Shown: piece after piece, positions 41,331-46,351 of the stretch
Position numbering within the stretch: the stretch's first letter is position 1
Layout of the letters: each line of letters starts with the position of its first letter
Origin: Dyella sp. RRB7
GTDB lineage: Bacteria; Pseudomonadota; Gammaproteobacteria; Xanthomonadales; Rhodanobacteraceae
NCBI RefSeq assembly: GCF_022761115.1
Contig: NZ_JAKWJS010000001.1
Coordinates: forward strand, 186,001 to 250,000
Reading direction: 5' to 3'
Length of the DNA: 64,000 nucleotides
Position numbers and translations under genes: made by a program
The notes under the pieces: model-generated
What the model saw: only the letters and a program-made list of their open reading frames with translations
The model's database searches: none
What the model was told of the DNA's origin: nothing

Positions 41331-42293
41331 TCAGTCGATGTACAACGAGCTCACCGACTCGCCAAAGGCGATGCGGCGGATCGTTTCCGCCAGCAGCTCG
41401 GCGACCGAGAGCTGGCGGATCTTGGCGCAGGCAGCCACTTCCGGGCGCAGCGGCAAGGTGTTGGTGACCACCAGCTGGTCGAGCTGGGAGCCTTCGATAT
41501 TGCGGATGGCCGCGCCCGACAGCACCGGGTGCACGCAGTAGGCCACTACCTTGCGGGCGCCGCGCTCCTTCAGGGCCGCCGCCGCCGCGCAAAGCGTGCC
41601 GGCGGTGTCGACGATGTCGTCCACCAGCACGCAGGTCTTGCCGTCCACGTCGCCGATGATGTTCATCACCGTGGCGACGTTGGCCTTCGGGCGGCGCTTG
41701 TCGATGATGGCCAGATCGGCGTCATCGAGGCGCTTGGCCATGGCACGGGCGCGCACCACGCCACCGACGTCCGGGCTGACCACGATCAGGTCGTCCATGC
41801 TGTGGTTGCGCCAGATGTCCGCCAGCAGCACCGGCGAGGCATACACGTTGTCCACCGGGATATCGAAGAAGCCCTGGATCTGGTCGGCGTGCAGGTCGAC
41901 CGTGAGCACGCGGTCGACACCGGCGGTGCCGATCAGCTTGGCCGCCAGCTTGGCCGTGATCGGCACGCGCGCCGAACGCGGGCGGCGGTCCTGGCGGGCG
42001 TAGCCGAAGTACGGCATCACCGCGGTGACGCTGGCGGCCGAGGCGCGCTTGAGCGCATCGACCAGGGTCAGCAGCTCGAACAGGTTTTCCGCGCTCGGCG
42101 CACCGGTGGGCTGCAACACGAACACTTCCTGGCGACGGACGTTTTCCTCGATCTCGATCTGGGTTTCGCCGTCGCTGAAACGGCCGACCAGGGCCTTGCC
42201 CAGCGGCACGCCCAGGCGCTGGGCGACATCCTCGGCGAGCGCGCGGTGCGCGTTGCCGGTGAAGAGCATCGGACCGGAGGTGTCGACAGTCAT
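41331..42293 (-). CDS. prs: Ribose-phosphate pyrophosphokinase
   Basis: PRPP synthetase, 320 residues, makes phosphoribosyl pyrophosphate for nucleotides, histidine, tryptophan and NAD. I start at ATG 42293 ([19 protein letters not shown]); a longer frame runs upstream through tRNA-Gln and is not coding. The flexible-loop region ([14 protein letters not shown]) and the PRPP motif [12 protein letters not shown] are conserved. It sits between tRNA-Gln and rplY. Confidence 0.97.
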
Positions 42294-42322
42294 CTTTATT
42301 GAACCTGAGCCATTGTGTGGAA

Positions 42323-42399
42323 TGGCTGGGGCGGCAGGATTCGAACCTGCGCATGCGGGAATCAAAATCCCGTGCCTTAACCAGCTTGGCGACGCCCCA
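42323..42399 (-). tRNA. tRNA-Gln (anticodon TTG)
   Basis: A 77-nt cloverleaf with acceptor TGGGGCG/CGCCCCA and anticodon stem CGGGA/TCCCG around the loop TTTTGAT, giving anticodon TTG. The T loop is TTCGAAT and CCA is encoded. It lies between ispE and prs, a common position, and is probably cut from their shared transcript. Confidence 0.97.
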
Positions 42400-42420
42400 G
42401 TATCACTGGAATTGATGTTG

Positions 42421-43815
42421 CTACCGGCCTGCCCCAGCGGCACCGCGATGGCGCGCCAGGGCAAGCTGCAGCGGAGAAGTATCCACACCCATGGCCACAT
42501 GAGCCGTGAACCGGGCAGGACACCGTTCCGCTATGGCCTCGGCGCGTTCTGGCGACTCCGTCTCCAGGAACACACACGCACCGCTGCCAGAAAGCTTCGC
42601 CCGGCCGAAGCCGCCGAGCCAGTCCAGCGCCGCGGCAACGCGCGGATGTCGCGCGCGAACCACCGCCACGAACGCGTTCTCGACCGTTTCGCCCGAAGCA
42701 AAGGATGAAATTGTGGCGGGCGGGGCATTTCGTGTCAATTCAGACGCTTGAAAAAGTGCCGCGGTGGGCACGTGTTCGTGGGGGTCGAGCACCACATACC
42801 AGCGCCGGGGAAGGCTCAATGGGGTGAGTTTTTCGCCCACGCCCTCGGCCCAGGCCGAGCGGCCACGCACGAACACCGGCACATCGGCACCCAGCTGGCG
42901 ACCCAGCTCGGCCAGCGCGTCCTCGTCCAGCCCCGCGCCCCACAACCGGTTCAGCGCCACCAGCACCGTGGCGGCGTCCGAACTGCCGCCGCCCAGGCCG
43001 CCGCCCATGGGGATGCGCTTGTCCACCTCGATATCGGCCCCCAGGCCGCCGGGAGCGTGGGGTTGCAGCAGGCGGGCGGCGCGCACCACCAGGTCGGTGT
43101 CGGCCGGCACGCCGGGAACGTCGGTGAGGCGATGGATCTCGCCATCGCGGCGCACGCGCAGACGGATCTCATCGCCCCAGTCGAGCAGCCGGAACACCGT
43201 CTGCAGCTCGTGGTAGCCATCGGCTCGCCGGCCGGTGATACGCAGAAACAGGTTCAGCTTGGCCGGTGCCGGCCAGGCGGTCCAGTCGGTCGCGTCGGGT
43301 GACGCCAGCGGACGGCTCATGAACACGCGCAGATCCTCGGGAAAGCCGTTCTCGCGATCCCGCTCGCGGGCAAAGGCCAGCTCGGGGCTGTTCTTGTCGA
43401 CGATGACAAATCCGTGTTTGGCGTAGAACGGCGCGTTCCAGGGCACATCCGCCAGCGTGCCCAGGTCCACCCGGTGGTAACCGGCCATGCGGGCCCAGGC
43501 GCAGGCGTGTTCCAGCAGGGCCGCTCCGATGCCGCGCTGCCCATGCGAGGGCAGCACATCCATCTCGGCCACGCCGATGGCCGCGCCGCCCTCTTCCGTA
43601 TCCAGCCACACAAAGCCAACCGGCTCGCCCGAACCGATAACCGCAACCCAGACCAGCCCGCGGGCGATCGCTTCGCGCAGCACCTCCGGAGGCACCGACA
43701 CGCGCCGGTAGGAGGACCAGGCGCGATGGCCACGGAACAGCTCCACCGCGGCGCGCTCGATGGCGCACAGGGCGTCGACCTGATCGGGGCGGGCGCGTTC
43801 GATGTGGTAGGTCAT
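42421..43815 (-). CDS. ispE: GNAT acetyltransferase-IspE (4-diphosphocytidyl-2-C-methyl-D-erythritol kinase) fusion
   Basis: One uninterrupted 464-residue frame joins two enzymes. Residues 1 to about 165 are a complete GNAT domain ([20 protein letters not shown] holds the acetyl-CoA motif; PFYAKHGF is motif B). From about 178 it is IspE, the GHMP kinase that phosphorylates CDP-methylerythritol in the MEP isoprenoid pathway: [23 protein letters not shown], then the ATP-binding [17 protein letters not shown], and [15 protein letters not shown] near the end. An internal ATG at 43320 (Met166, GAGGA about 13 bases upstream) could give a free 299-residue IspE, the usual size. No stop lies between the parts. 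It follows the lolB repeat element and precedes tRNA-Gln. Confidence 0.93.
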
Positions 43816-43835
43816 GGAGCTCCCGGTCTTTTACT

Positions 43836-43967
43836 TCCTCTCCCCGCTGGGGAGAGGATTAGAGGTGAGGGGCGGGTGCTCGCGGCAGGGCGGCTACGGA
43901 GCACGCTCCAATAAAGCGCCATCGCAAGATTGGCCCCGCACCCTACCCTCTCCCCAAGGGGAAAGGG
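43836..43967. repeat. Inverted pair of CCTCTCCCC hairpins between lolB and ispE
   Basis: Two stem-loops share the core CCTCTCCCC. The first is 10 bp with a GCT loop (43836-43858); the second is 10 bp with one mismatch (43946-43967). Each is flanked on its inner side by a GA/GC-rich tail (GAGGTGAGGGGCGGG after the first; its rough complement GCCCCGCACCC before the second), so the two copies form an inverted pair like a REP/BIME element. They could also end the lolB transcript. Confidence 0.6.
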
Positions 43968-43979
43968 AATGTCACGGCG

Positions 43980-44615
43980 TTACTGCTGGATGTTCCAGGA
44001 CTCCACCGACAGGCGCACCTTGTACGGCGGATTTTCGGCGAACACCTTGGACGGCACGGCCGGCTCGCGCGTGGTGTCCCAGGCCGGGTACGAAACGGTC
44101 CAGCCGCCCTGCACCATCTGCAACGGCAGGCCATCGTCACCGAACTTGAAGTCGGCCGGGCCAGCCTCGGAGCGCAAGCCCAGCACCCAGGCACGCAGGT
44201 CGCGGAACGGCAAATGCCAGCCCAGTGCGTTCTCCACCAGCGTCTCCGGGTCCTGGCCGCGCTGCGGACCGCCATCGAGCCCTTCCAGCAGAGCGCCATC
44301 CGGGGTGACGCTGAGGCGGAAGCTCTTGCTGCCCACCGGGCCGCGCACCACGAAATCGTAGCTGTTGCCGTTCTGGGTCCAGATCAACGTGCCGCTGCCG
44401 CCCTCCGACTTGCCGTTGACGGGACCGGACACGCCGATCTTGCCCTGCAGCACCCAATGGTCGGTCTTGGCAAGCAGGTGTTCGCGGGCGCGCTGCTGGT
44501 CGAGCAAGGCGGCGAAATCAGCCTTGGGGGCCGGCGGACGCACCGTTTCCTTGTGCACACAGGCGGCTAGCAGCAGCGGCAAGGCTACCGCGATCAATCG
44601 AATGGGAAGCTTCAT
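43980..44615 (-). CDS. lolB: Outer membrane lipoprotein LolB
   Basis: LolB, 211 residues, receives lipoproteins from LolA and inserts them in the outer membrane. A signal peptide ends in the lipobox LLLAAC, with the lipidated Cys at residue 19. The mature beta-rich part includes GKIGVSGPVNGKSEGGSGTLIWTQ and WVLGLRSEAG. Its start overlaps the stop of the upstream TPR lipoprotein gene (ATGA). It is in the conserved lolB-ispE-prs order. Confidence 0.93.
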   Translation of the reverse strand: MKLPIRLIAVALPLLLAACVHKETVRPPAPKADFAALLDQQRAREHLLAKTDHWVLQGKIGVSGPVNGKSEGGSGTLIWTQNGNSYDFVVRGPVGSKSFRLSVTPDGALLEGLDGGPQRGQDPETLVENALGWHLPFRDLRAWVLGLRSEAGPADFKFGDDGLPLQMVQGGWTVSYPAWDTTREPAVPSKVFAENPPYKVRLSVESWNIQQ

Positions 44616-46351
44616 GGATTAAGGCGCTTGAGGGTGTTGTGGAGGCTGGTGCTCTGCGGGTCGATCTTACGCACTTCGTCAAACACGCGCCGCGCGTCCT
44701 GCTGCCGGCCCTGTTTCCACAGCACTTCGCCCAGGTGCACGCCGACATCGGCGTCCTTGTGCGCCATCCAGGCACCGCGCAAGGTCTGCTCGGCCTGGTC
44801 GAGGTGGCCCAGGCGGTATTGCAGCCAGCCCCAGGAATCCTGGATGGCCGGATCGTCCGGCCGCGCCGCGCGGGCGGCCTCGATCAGCCGCTGCGCCTCG
44901 GGCAGGTCGCGGTTGGCGTCGGCCAGCGTGTAGCCGAGCGCATTGCTGGCGTCGGTGTCATCCGGCTTGAGCGCCAGCAGGCGGCGGAAGTCATTCACCG
45001 CCTGATCGGTCTTGCCTTCTTCGGCATAGGCCAGGCCGCGACCGTACAGCAGGCCCGGATCGTCGGGCGTTATCTGCAGGGCGCGGCTGAAGGCGCGCTC
45101 GGCCTGCGCGTACTGCTGGTCGTTCATGTAGAGCTCGGCGTCCACCTCGTAGGCACGGCGCAGCATGGTCGGCTGGTCGAGATAGTCGGTCTGCATCTGC
45201 GCCAGCTGTTCGTGCGCCTCGGCGCTGCGGCCAAGATCCTGCATCAGCACCGCGCTGCGCAGGTCGGCGTCGAACGCATGGTCGTCGTCATCGGGAACCT
45301 GGTCGTACCACTTCAGCGCTTCTTCCTTGCGATCGAGCATCTCGGCCAGTTGGCCCAGCAGGTAGGCACTGTTCTGGCGAACGTCCTCGGGCGAGCGCTG
45401 CAACTGGGTGTACAGGCGATTGATGGTCTTGGTGTCGTTGCTGCGGGCGGCCAGGGCGGCGCGCATCGCATAGGTGTCGGTGTCCTGCGGACCGCTGTCC
45501 AGCAGGCGCGCGGCGCCTGCGTAATCGCCGTTCTGGCCCAGCAAGGTGGCATAGGCCAGGCGCAGGTGGGTGTTCTTGGGATCCTTGGCCAGCGCCTTGT
45601 CGAACAACGCCTTGGCGCCTGCCTTGTCGCCGTCGCGGTACTTCATCTGCGCCAGCCAGGCATAGGTTTCCCCACTGCCGAAGCGCTTCGCGGCGGCATC
45701 GGCGATCTGCAGGGCATAGGCGTGGCGACCCAGCTTGTCGCCCAGCTCACTCATCGCCAGCCAGGCCTGCGGGTCGGCGGGCAGCCGTTGCGGGGTGGCC
45801 ACGGCCTCCAGCAGCTGGGCTGCCTGGGCGGCGTCGCGGCTGCCCACGAGGACGCGGCCAAACTGGCGCCAGGCATCCGGGTCACCCGTGGCCACCAGCA
45901 GCTCAAGCTGCCGGCGCGCTTCGTCGGTATTGCCCTGGCTCAGTGCCAGCTGGGCCCGCGCCTGGGCCAGCGGCCCGGGCTTGGCGCCCAGCGCCGCCCA
46001 GCGCGCAATGGCCGCTTGCGCGCCTGGCGTATCGCGCACGGCAATGGCCAGGGCGGCAGCCTGTTCGGCCACATCGGGATCATTGGACAGCACCATGGCC
46101 CGGCCGAAGGCCGCCGAGGCGCCATTGAGATCGGTACGGGTGAGCGCCATCTCGCCAGCCAGCAGCTGGGCGATCAGGTCGTGATCCTCGTCCGGCGTGG
46201 CCACCACCATATGCGCCAACGGCTGGGTGGACGCGGACGACTCGCGGCCCGGCCGGCCGGGTGCCATGGCGCAGCCCGCCAGGACCAGCACCGCCATGCC
46301 GCTCGCCGCAAAATGCCGCAGTTGCTTGAACTTGGACCACCTGCTCAGCAC
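44612..46351 (-). CDS. TPR-repeat lipoprotein upstream of lolB
   Basis: A 579-residue protein with a lipoprotein signal (VLVLAGCAM, Cys at residue 27) and at least ten TPR-like helical repeats to the end (for example FGRAMVLSNDPDVAEQAAAL, FSRALQITPDDPGLLYGRGLAYAEEGK). It is probably a periplasmic or outer-membrane-anchored scaffold. Orthologues precede lolB in many Xanthomonadales and Pseudomonas, but the function is unknown. It overlaps lolB by four bases and is divergent from hemA over 107 bp. A palindrome GCTATAGC (46407-46414) lies between and could be a shared -10 for both directions. Confidence 0.9.
   Translation of the reverse strand: MLSRWSKFKQLRHFAASGMAVLVLAGCAMAPGRPGRESSASTQPLAHMVVATPDEDHDLIAQLLAGEMALTRTDLNGASAAFGRAMVLSNDPDVAEQAAALAIAVRDTPGAQAAIARWAALGAKPGPLAQARAQLALSQGNTDEARRQLELLVATGDPDAWRQFGRVLVGSRDAAQAAQLLEAVATPQRLPADPQAWLAMSELGDKLGRHAYALQIADAAAKRFGSGETYAWLAQMKYRDGDKAGAKALFDKALAKDPKNTHLRLAYATLLGQNGDYAGAARLLDSGPQDTDTYAMRAALAARSNDTKTINRLYTQLQRSPEDVRQNSAYLLGQLAEMLDRKEEALKWYDQVPDDDDHAFDADLRSAVLMQDLGRSAEAHEQLAQMQTDYLDQPTMLRRAYEVDAELYMNDQQYAQAERAFSRALQITPDDPGLLYGRGLAYAEEGKTDQAVNDFRRLLALKPDDTDASNALGYTLADANRDLPEAQRLIEAARAARPDDPAIQDSWGWLQYRLGHLDQAEQTLRGAWMAHKDADVGVHLGEVLWKQGRQQDARRVFDEVRKIDPQSTSLHNTLKRLNP

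Follow-up and report, generated by a model that had tools for sequence, protein, structure and literature searches.

The 64,000-nucleotide stretch of Dyella sp. RRB7 DNA analysed here (the window) encodes a GNAT acetyltransferase fused in frame to the isoprenoid kinase IspE, and the ispE part contains a sigma-70-like promoter element located 5' of a tRNA-Gln gene. The joint explanation that we consider probable from comparison of related genomes is that the fusion is a frozen gene-order accident, outlived by the GNAT and by a tRNA-Gln promoter embedded in ispE. In the open-licence papers searched, no report was found of a GNAT-IspE fusion or of a tRNA-Gln promoter inside ispE.

Domain structure of the fusion

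The fusion and its upstream neighbour have the following coordinates in the window:

43980..44615, minus strand: lolB, upstream neighbour of the fusion (name from E. coli gene order)
42421..43815, minus strand: GNAT-IspE fusion ORF, 464 aa, ATG at 43815, stop at 42421
43312..43815, minus strand: GNAT acetyltransferase domain, residues 1–168, C-terminal LRVFMSR (Pfam, 9cr5 alignment, sister-family homologues)
43318..43320, minus strand: internal ATG, Met166, an invariant GNAT residue and proposed second start
43276..43311, minus strand: linker of about 12 residues, variable in sequence, stop-free in frame in every fetched relative
42424..43275, minus strand: IspE kinase domain, residues 181–464, beginning at W181 (NCBIfam, 1oj4 alignment)

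A reading made from the sequence alone (the sequence-only reading) had described a single 464-codon frame with a complete GNAT and a complete IspE. Profile searches bore this out for the minus-strand frame. Acetyltransf_7 (PF13508; 50.5 bits, residues 53–137), Acetyltransf_1 (PF00583; 47.2 bits), GHMP_kinases_N (70.6 bits, residues 242–318) and GHMP_kinases_C (38.7 bits, residues 385–436) all exceeded their Pfam cut-offs. The NCBIfam ispE model TIGR00154 scored 268.3 bits against a cut-off of 138.7, and GHMP motifs can also be read in the kinase half. GNAT motif A has the form R/Q-x-x-G-x-G/A. The motif HGQRGIG is present in the GNAT half; the window reads HGQRGIGA, with Gly at the first motif-A position, and G95 and G97 were invariant across 67 sequences.

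The nearest solved GNAT by sequence was PA2271 (PDB 9cr5), a separate protein (E 6.7e-21, 78 bits, residues 1–166); a literature search on PA2271 found no paper. The homology spans the entire domain together with its C-terminal extension and terminal Met. The window's GNAT differs in being fused to IspE, and 78 bits are too little to establish the same function. In the alignment with chain 1oj4, W181 of the fusion stands opposite residue 5, so that a normal IspE loses merely its first few residues to the linker. With IspE in its standard form (CDP-ME kinase of the GHMP superfamily; TIGR00154, 1oj4) the window shares the full kinase domain, the Gly-rich loop and the motif at 311, but it adds an N-terminal GNAT domain, and some of its relatives have an eroded kinase.

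Fused MEP enzymes such as IspDF are already known, as are promoters that lie within coding sequences. IspDF, a bifunctional MEP enzyme, is named in PMC13001223 and PMC10663253. IspDF and the window's protein are both fusions with an MEP-pathway enzyme; IspDF unites two enzymes of one pathway, whereas the kinase here is joined to an unrelated acetyltransferase, which outlives it. Between lolB and the GNAT start (43830–43970), facing CTCTCCCC/GGGGAGAG-like repeats were spotted by eye.

Distribution of the fusion in Rhodanobacteraceae

The sequence-only reading had suggested looking for the fused architecture across Rhodanobacteraceae, and 233 genomes of 26 genera were searched. The fusion, either full or cut by a contig end, was found in 137 of the 145 genomes belonging to 17 genera. 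Genera are numbered g1 (Dyella, the window's genus), g11 (Frateuria), g16 (Luteibacter), g22 (Rhodanobacter), g23 (which includes Fulvimonas) and so on; some Dyella-named strains belong to g8 and g9. The kinase was lost in six of the remaining eight genomes, and two (G166 and G199) had no usable match. G199 is a 1.5-Mb assembly. In G166, dxr and ispG were found while neither HMG-CoA reductase nor prs was matched, which makes an assembly gap likely.

A sequencing error or frameshift near the junction had been named as the finding that would undo the fusion. It was ruled out by the relatives, since the junction was open in all 137 fetched fusions (the window's own genome counted). In-frame stops at the relatives' junction were likewise ruled out; the stops inspected were confined to query residues 459–463. 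The linker measured 11–12 residues in 124 of the 137 fusions by a single pattern, which matched elsewhere in the other 13.

In the other nine genera the IspE half was matched alone, or nothing was matched. For eight of these nine (all but g2), the sampled members shown yielded no GNAT homologue at E 1e-15. At outgroup loci, lolB directly adjoins ispE and the GNAT is absent between them. Sister family f2 has a GNAT homologue of 38–47% identity that is unfused, and distant from ispE where one contig held both. At two f2 loci available in full (L286 and L293), the unfused GNAT directly followed, on the same strand, a gene that we take from its sequence to be glmU-like. The fusion was probably a single ancestral event in the common ancestor of the 17 genera: the GNAT gene appears to have been inserted between lolB and ispE and joined to the kinase before these genera diverged. 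Separately, a Rhodanobacter-group fusion (G188; L220 / L238) has an in-frame insertion in the kinase N-lobe, made of repeated TGADIE / TGVDIE-like units.

Translation of the kinase half

The sequence-only reading had further raised the possibility that ribosomes also initiate at the internal ATG at 43320 and yield a free IspE. The ATG and a GAGGA about 12 nt upstream of 43320–43318 do exist in the window, and the ATG was kept in 137/137 fusions. Nevertheless, a Shine-Dalgarno (SD)-like word of at least 4 nt preceded it in just 4 of 129 intact fusions, as compared to 51 of 419 at other internal ATGs. SD-like words are a weak criterion for this gene, since merely 16 of 124 N-terminal starts have one. 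In 12-codon windows indexed by start codon, no dip in synonymous diversity was found at codons 153–169 in any of five groups, though the same scan clearly detects the promoter element described below. Finally, Met166 also terminates the GNAT part of PA2271, and GNAT-only relatives end in LRVFMSR plus a few residues. The residue thus belongs to the GNAT, and a start-codon role is unnecessary to explain its conservation. We regard initiation at 43320 as very unlikely, and ispE is probably now translated solely within the fusion polypeptide.

Erosion and loss of the kinase

The kinase was eroded in eight and deleted in six of the 145 genomes; the GNAT was intact in all 14. Sixteen g7 genomes comprised three intact fusions, seven full-length proteins with an eroded kinase and six with the GNAT only. 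The eighth eroded case, G198, belongs to a different genus (g23). In a tree of the GNAT the six deletions fell at two places, G079 apart from G068/G070/G072/G076/G077, with several supports of 44–71.

HMG-CoA reductase served as the marker of the mevalonate pathway and was the sole gene of that pathway tested. It was found in 14/14 genomes with an eroded or deleted kinase versus 13/129 with an intact kinase. Overall, 44 of the 233 genomes had it: all 16 of g7, G198, G036 and G040 (both g5), G134 (g17), ten of g22 and 14 of 16 in g2, where the remaining two were the ones having a full IspE. Among 38 genomes examined, ispG was above cut-off in 17 and absent in all 16 of g7, in G198, G036 and G199, and in both ispE-less g2 genomes tested. 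For dxr, one of the 16 g7 genomes (G074) was above cut-off. The HMG-CoA reductase matches (e.g. L264–L273) lay in open frames of 755–960 aa, a split one in G175 excepted; these may be fusions to a second enzyme or chance frames. The window's genome, alone among the 38, had two dxr genes above cut-off (G000:C12:71909-73048, 494.7 bits; G000:C1:142925-144082, 457.4 bits).

Erosion was scored on columns invariant in 67 intact fusions (34 in the GNAT, 55 in the N-lobe plus middle, 17 in the C-lobe). In the eight eroded proteins, 0/34 GNAT columns, 5–25/55 N-lobe plus middle columns and 0–1/17 C-lobe columns were changed, L198 being the mildest case (5/55). The changes included N188, H202, G271, G276, G277, D280 and D311 in varied combinations, and ATP-loop and substrate residues were among the changed N-lobe columns. 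GHMP_N and GHMP_C remained above the Pfam cut-offs in 8/8, with GHMP_N at 36–63 bits versus 70 in an intact g7 protein. G198 fell below the TIGR00154 cut-off; the seven g7 proteins with an eroded kinase passed it, a count deduced by subtraction. The passing scores weigh against calling these kinases dead, and the changed invariant columns weigh the other way; the eroded kinases are probably inactive.

In the seven eroded g7 sequences, pN/pS was 0.21 (GNAT), 0.48 (N-lobe) and 0.23 (C-lobe); the Dyella values were 0.11, 0.15 and 0.19, respectively. From the changes particular to each sequence, about 8.6 stops were expected in the N-lobe plus middle of the seven genes and none was found, a comparison that is biased in that an open frame defines the group. 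Decay in an open frame is not peculiar to the fusion, as dxr decays with a full-length open frame in five of the eroded-kinase genomes.

Conservation of the C-lobe in the eroded kinases is not accounted for by a gene-order accident. It would suit a decayed kinase that was captured as a pseudokinase and works as partner of the GNAT, within a gene that also houses the tRNA promoter: the C-lobe of the seven g7 genes evolves at a rate as low as that of intact genes, and their frame has remained open. We hold this to be doubtful.

Could the GNAT instead be a regulatory or scaffolding partner that senses acetyl-CoA or acetylates the kinase, tuning isoprenoid flux? The junction was open in 129/129 fetched genomes with an intact kinase, as such a role would lead one to expect. 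Yet the GNAT was retained in the six genomes whose kinase is deleted, its invariant columns were unaltered in the eight eroded-kinase proteins, and its sister-family homologues stand alone, at a distance from ispE in the cases where one contig carries both. A regulatory GNAT is accordingly quite unlikely. That the GNAT is a servant of the kinase was rejected in view of its retention in genomes with HMG-CoA reductase and an eroded or deleted kinase. Rather, the GNAT would act on a substrate of its own and not exist for the kinase, as its intactness in these genomes suggests. Of the bifunctional enzyme envisaged in the sequence-only reading, the two activities in one chain stay plausible in genomes with intact MEP genes; dependence of the GNAT on the kinase became unlikely with the eight eroded and six deleted cases.

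A promoter-like element inside ispE

A feature that the sequence-only reading does not mention lies in the C-terminal part of the kinase frame, upstream of two further genes:

42751..42755, minus strand: T-tract 5' of the -35, possibly UP-element-like (the class-wide consensus is T-rich there)
42733..42738, minus strand: -35 hexamer TTGACA, codons 360–361 (Leu-Thr)
42710..42715, minus strand: -10 hexamer CACAAT after a 17-nt spacer, comprising the end of codon 367, codon 368 and the start of codon 369
42323..42399, minus strand: tRNA-Gln (UUG), single copy in the genome, presumed target of the promoter
41331..42293, minus strand: prs, ribose-phosphate diphosphokinase, 3' of tRNA-Gln (named after its E. 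coli counterpart)

TTGACA-17-CACAAT (42738–42710, minus strand) was the sole sigma-70-like site on both strands of 42200–44700, with 0.2 expected in 2.5 kb. It lies within ispE, 310 nt 5' of tRNA-Gln, and its -10 matches the consensus at 4/6 positions.

For comparison between loci, a strict pattern (TTGAC.-17-.A.AAT at the aligned codon) was used, and expectations were obtained by synonymous resampling according to codon usage. With shared ancestry ignored in these expectations, the pattern was found at identical codon positions in 129/129 intact fusions (2.8 expected), in 74 of 75 other proteobacterial ispE genes (5.4 expected) and in 77 of 91 loci sampled across the Gammaproteobacteria (class-wide loci; 6.7 expected). 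The class-wide set consisted of 30 loci chosen automatically, 60 picked by hand from a score-ordered list, and E. coli. All eight eroded fusions had the pattern as well, and it was found nowhere else on the 318 kb of aligned coding strand.

Codon choice was skewed accordingly. Leu360 was TTG in 204/204 sequences (fusions and other proteobacterial loci) against backgrounds of 13% and 18%. In the fusions, the five most codon-biased of 240 conserved columns were codons 360–362, 368 and 369. In five of five groups, the 12-codon windows with the least synonymous diversity in the gene began at codons 352–374. On this sequence evidence, ispE codons 360–369 are constrained at the DNA level beyond the protein.

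The element was also retained before tRNA-Gln in all 14 informative ispE-less genomes. Seventeen such genomes were examined, namely six of g7, nine of g2 (the prs search covered nine of the 14 g2 genomes lacking ispE), G036 and G166; uninformative were G005, in which the contig ends at the tRNA, and G012 and G166, in which prs was not matched. In the six GNAT-only genomes, the element sits in the gap between GNAT and tRNA-Gln. It is the sole clear remnant of ispE in five of them, and in G079 it is accompanied by a C-lobe relic in a different frame. The element was found 5' of tRNA-Gln in all seven informative g2 genomes of the nine examined, and G036 has a diverged form at this place.

It might be argued that TTGACA...ACAAT is kept merely since the enzyme needs the amino acids LTR...TI; L360, T361 and R362 are indeed invariant in 67 aligned fusions. 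However, codon choice is fixed far above usage. Residue 368 in the 75 other loci changes between Thr (ACA, 37 loci) and Lys (AAA, 36 loci) while the DNA stays constant as A-N-A-A-T. E. coli IspE has LPR, chain 1uek (from Thermus) is without LTR at the aligned place, and the element survives the loss of ispE altogether. A purely amino-acid-level cause is thus hardly credible. The IspE motif [EDQ]LTR...[TKR][IM] appears instead to be largely a by-product of the promoter.

tRNA-Gln as the probable target

The element is most likely a sigma-70 promoter of tRNA-Gln lying within the ispE reading frame. tRNA-Gln is single-copy; its sole other DNA match in the genome was tRNA-His. When 41 of the 55 loci L059–L113 were checked, tRNA-Gln(UUG) was located 3' of ispE in 40. 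The exception, L105 (Billgrantia), was the lone strict-pattern failure of the 75 loci and is broken in the -10. Class-wide, loci with tRNA-Gln had the loose motif in 77/85 and the strict one in 74/85 cases, and loci without tRNA-Gln in 0/3. Fisher's test on the loose counts gave p = 0.0015, with only three complete loci lacking tRNA-Gln and phylogeny not corrected for; the motif-positive contig-end loci L328, L359 and L375 were removed beforehand.

Motif-less loci with tRNA-Gln numbered 8/85 by the loose (L340, L367, L383, L321, L324, L325, L372 and L389) and 11/85 by the strict pattern. L340, L367 and L383 retain part of the element; sites resembling promoters occur in the gap of L325. Searches with simple patterns found no replacement promoter for most of the eight. 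The consensus of 80 class-wide sites was T-rich upstream and had ACGCGACTT after the -10. A GC-rich discriminator after the -10 is the form of stringently controlled tRNA and rRNA promoters; the Dyella clade is without the GC-rich part of this consensus.

In E. coli, older literature places a prs promoter within ispE. The element might by analogy be the promoter of prs and not of tRNA-Gln; prs comes after tRNA-Gln in the window. Several observations speak against this. The lone locus of 41 without tRNA-Gln is the one with a broken -10. In E. coli K-12, ispE adjoins prs with no intervening tRNA-Gln, LPR stands for LTR and the element is absent: the ispE-prs adjacency is kept, yet tRNA-Gln and element are both missing. 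The GC-rich discriminator of the class consensus is of the tRNA/rRNA type, though absent in the Dyella clade. We therefore consider prs an unlikely sole target; the element could serve it in addition to tRNA-Gln. The E. coli prs promoter and the present element have in common that both lie in the ispE reading frame. The element differs in occupying the same codons in most of the class, in accompanying tRNA-Gln and in persisting after loss of the host gene. Comparing the ispE genes themselves, the window carries the embedded element, whereas these codons in E. coli are without it.

Proposed course of events and implications

A tRNA-Gln promoter within ispE would mean that transcription dictates part of the IspE protein sequence. 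IspE, of the MEP pathway, is described as a drug target in PMC2655357. If the assignment is true, deletion or recoding of ispE would silently affect tRNA-Gln, which is single-copy here, and pathway replacement would leave a predictable promoter relic. The ispE losses in three genus-level lineages constitute a natural deletion map and make the overlapping-code hypothesis directly testable. A GNAT partner that outlives the enzyme it is fused to also calls for caution in inferring function from domain fusion alone.

The course of events may be pictured as follows. A GNAT gene would have come between lolB and ispE in the common ancestor of the 17 genera, and a short linker would have joined it in frame to IspE, replacing the first few kinase residues. 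The resulting fusion would be a frozen accident of gene order through which ispE goes on being translated, neither a channel nor a regulator. In lineages using mevalonate, the kinase would erode or be deleted while the GNAT remains. Throughout, sigma-70 transcription would start from ispE codons 360–369 toward tRNA-Gln, giving a transcript with a leader of about 300 nt from the ispE 3' end that is afterwards processed to the tRNA.

In Dyella, low synonymous diversity persisted 3' of the -10 (42421–42711), where windows from codons 369–401 had values of 0.05–0.27 against a mean of 0.43. Further overlapping signals are possible there, e.g. in the tRNA leader.
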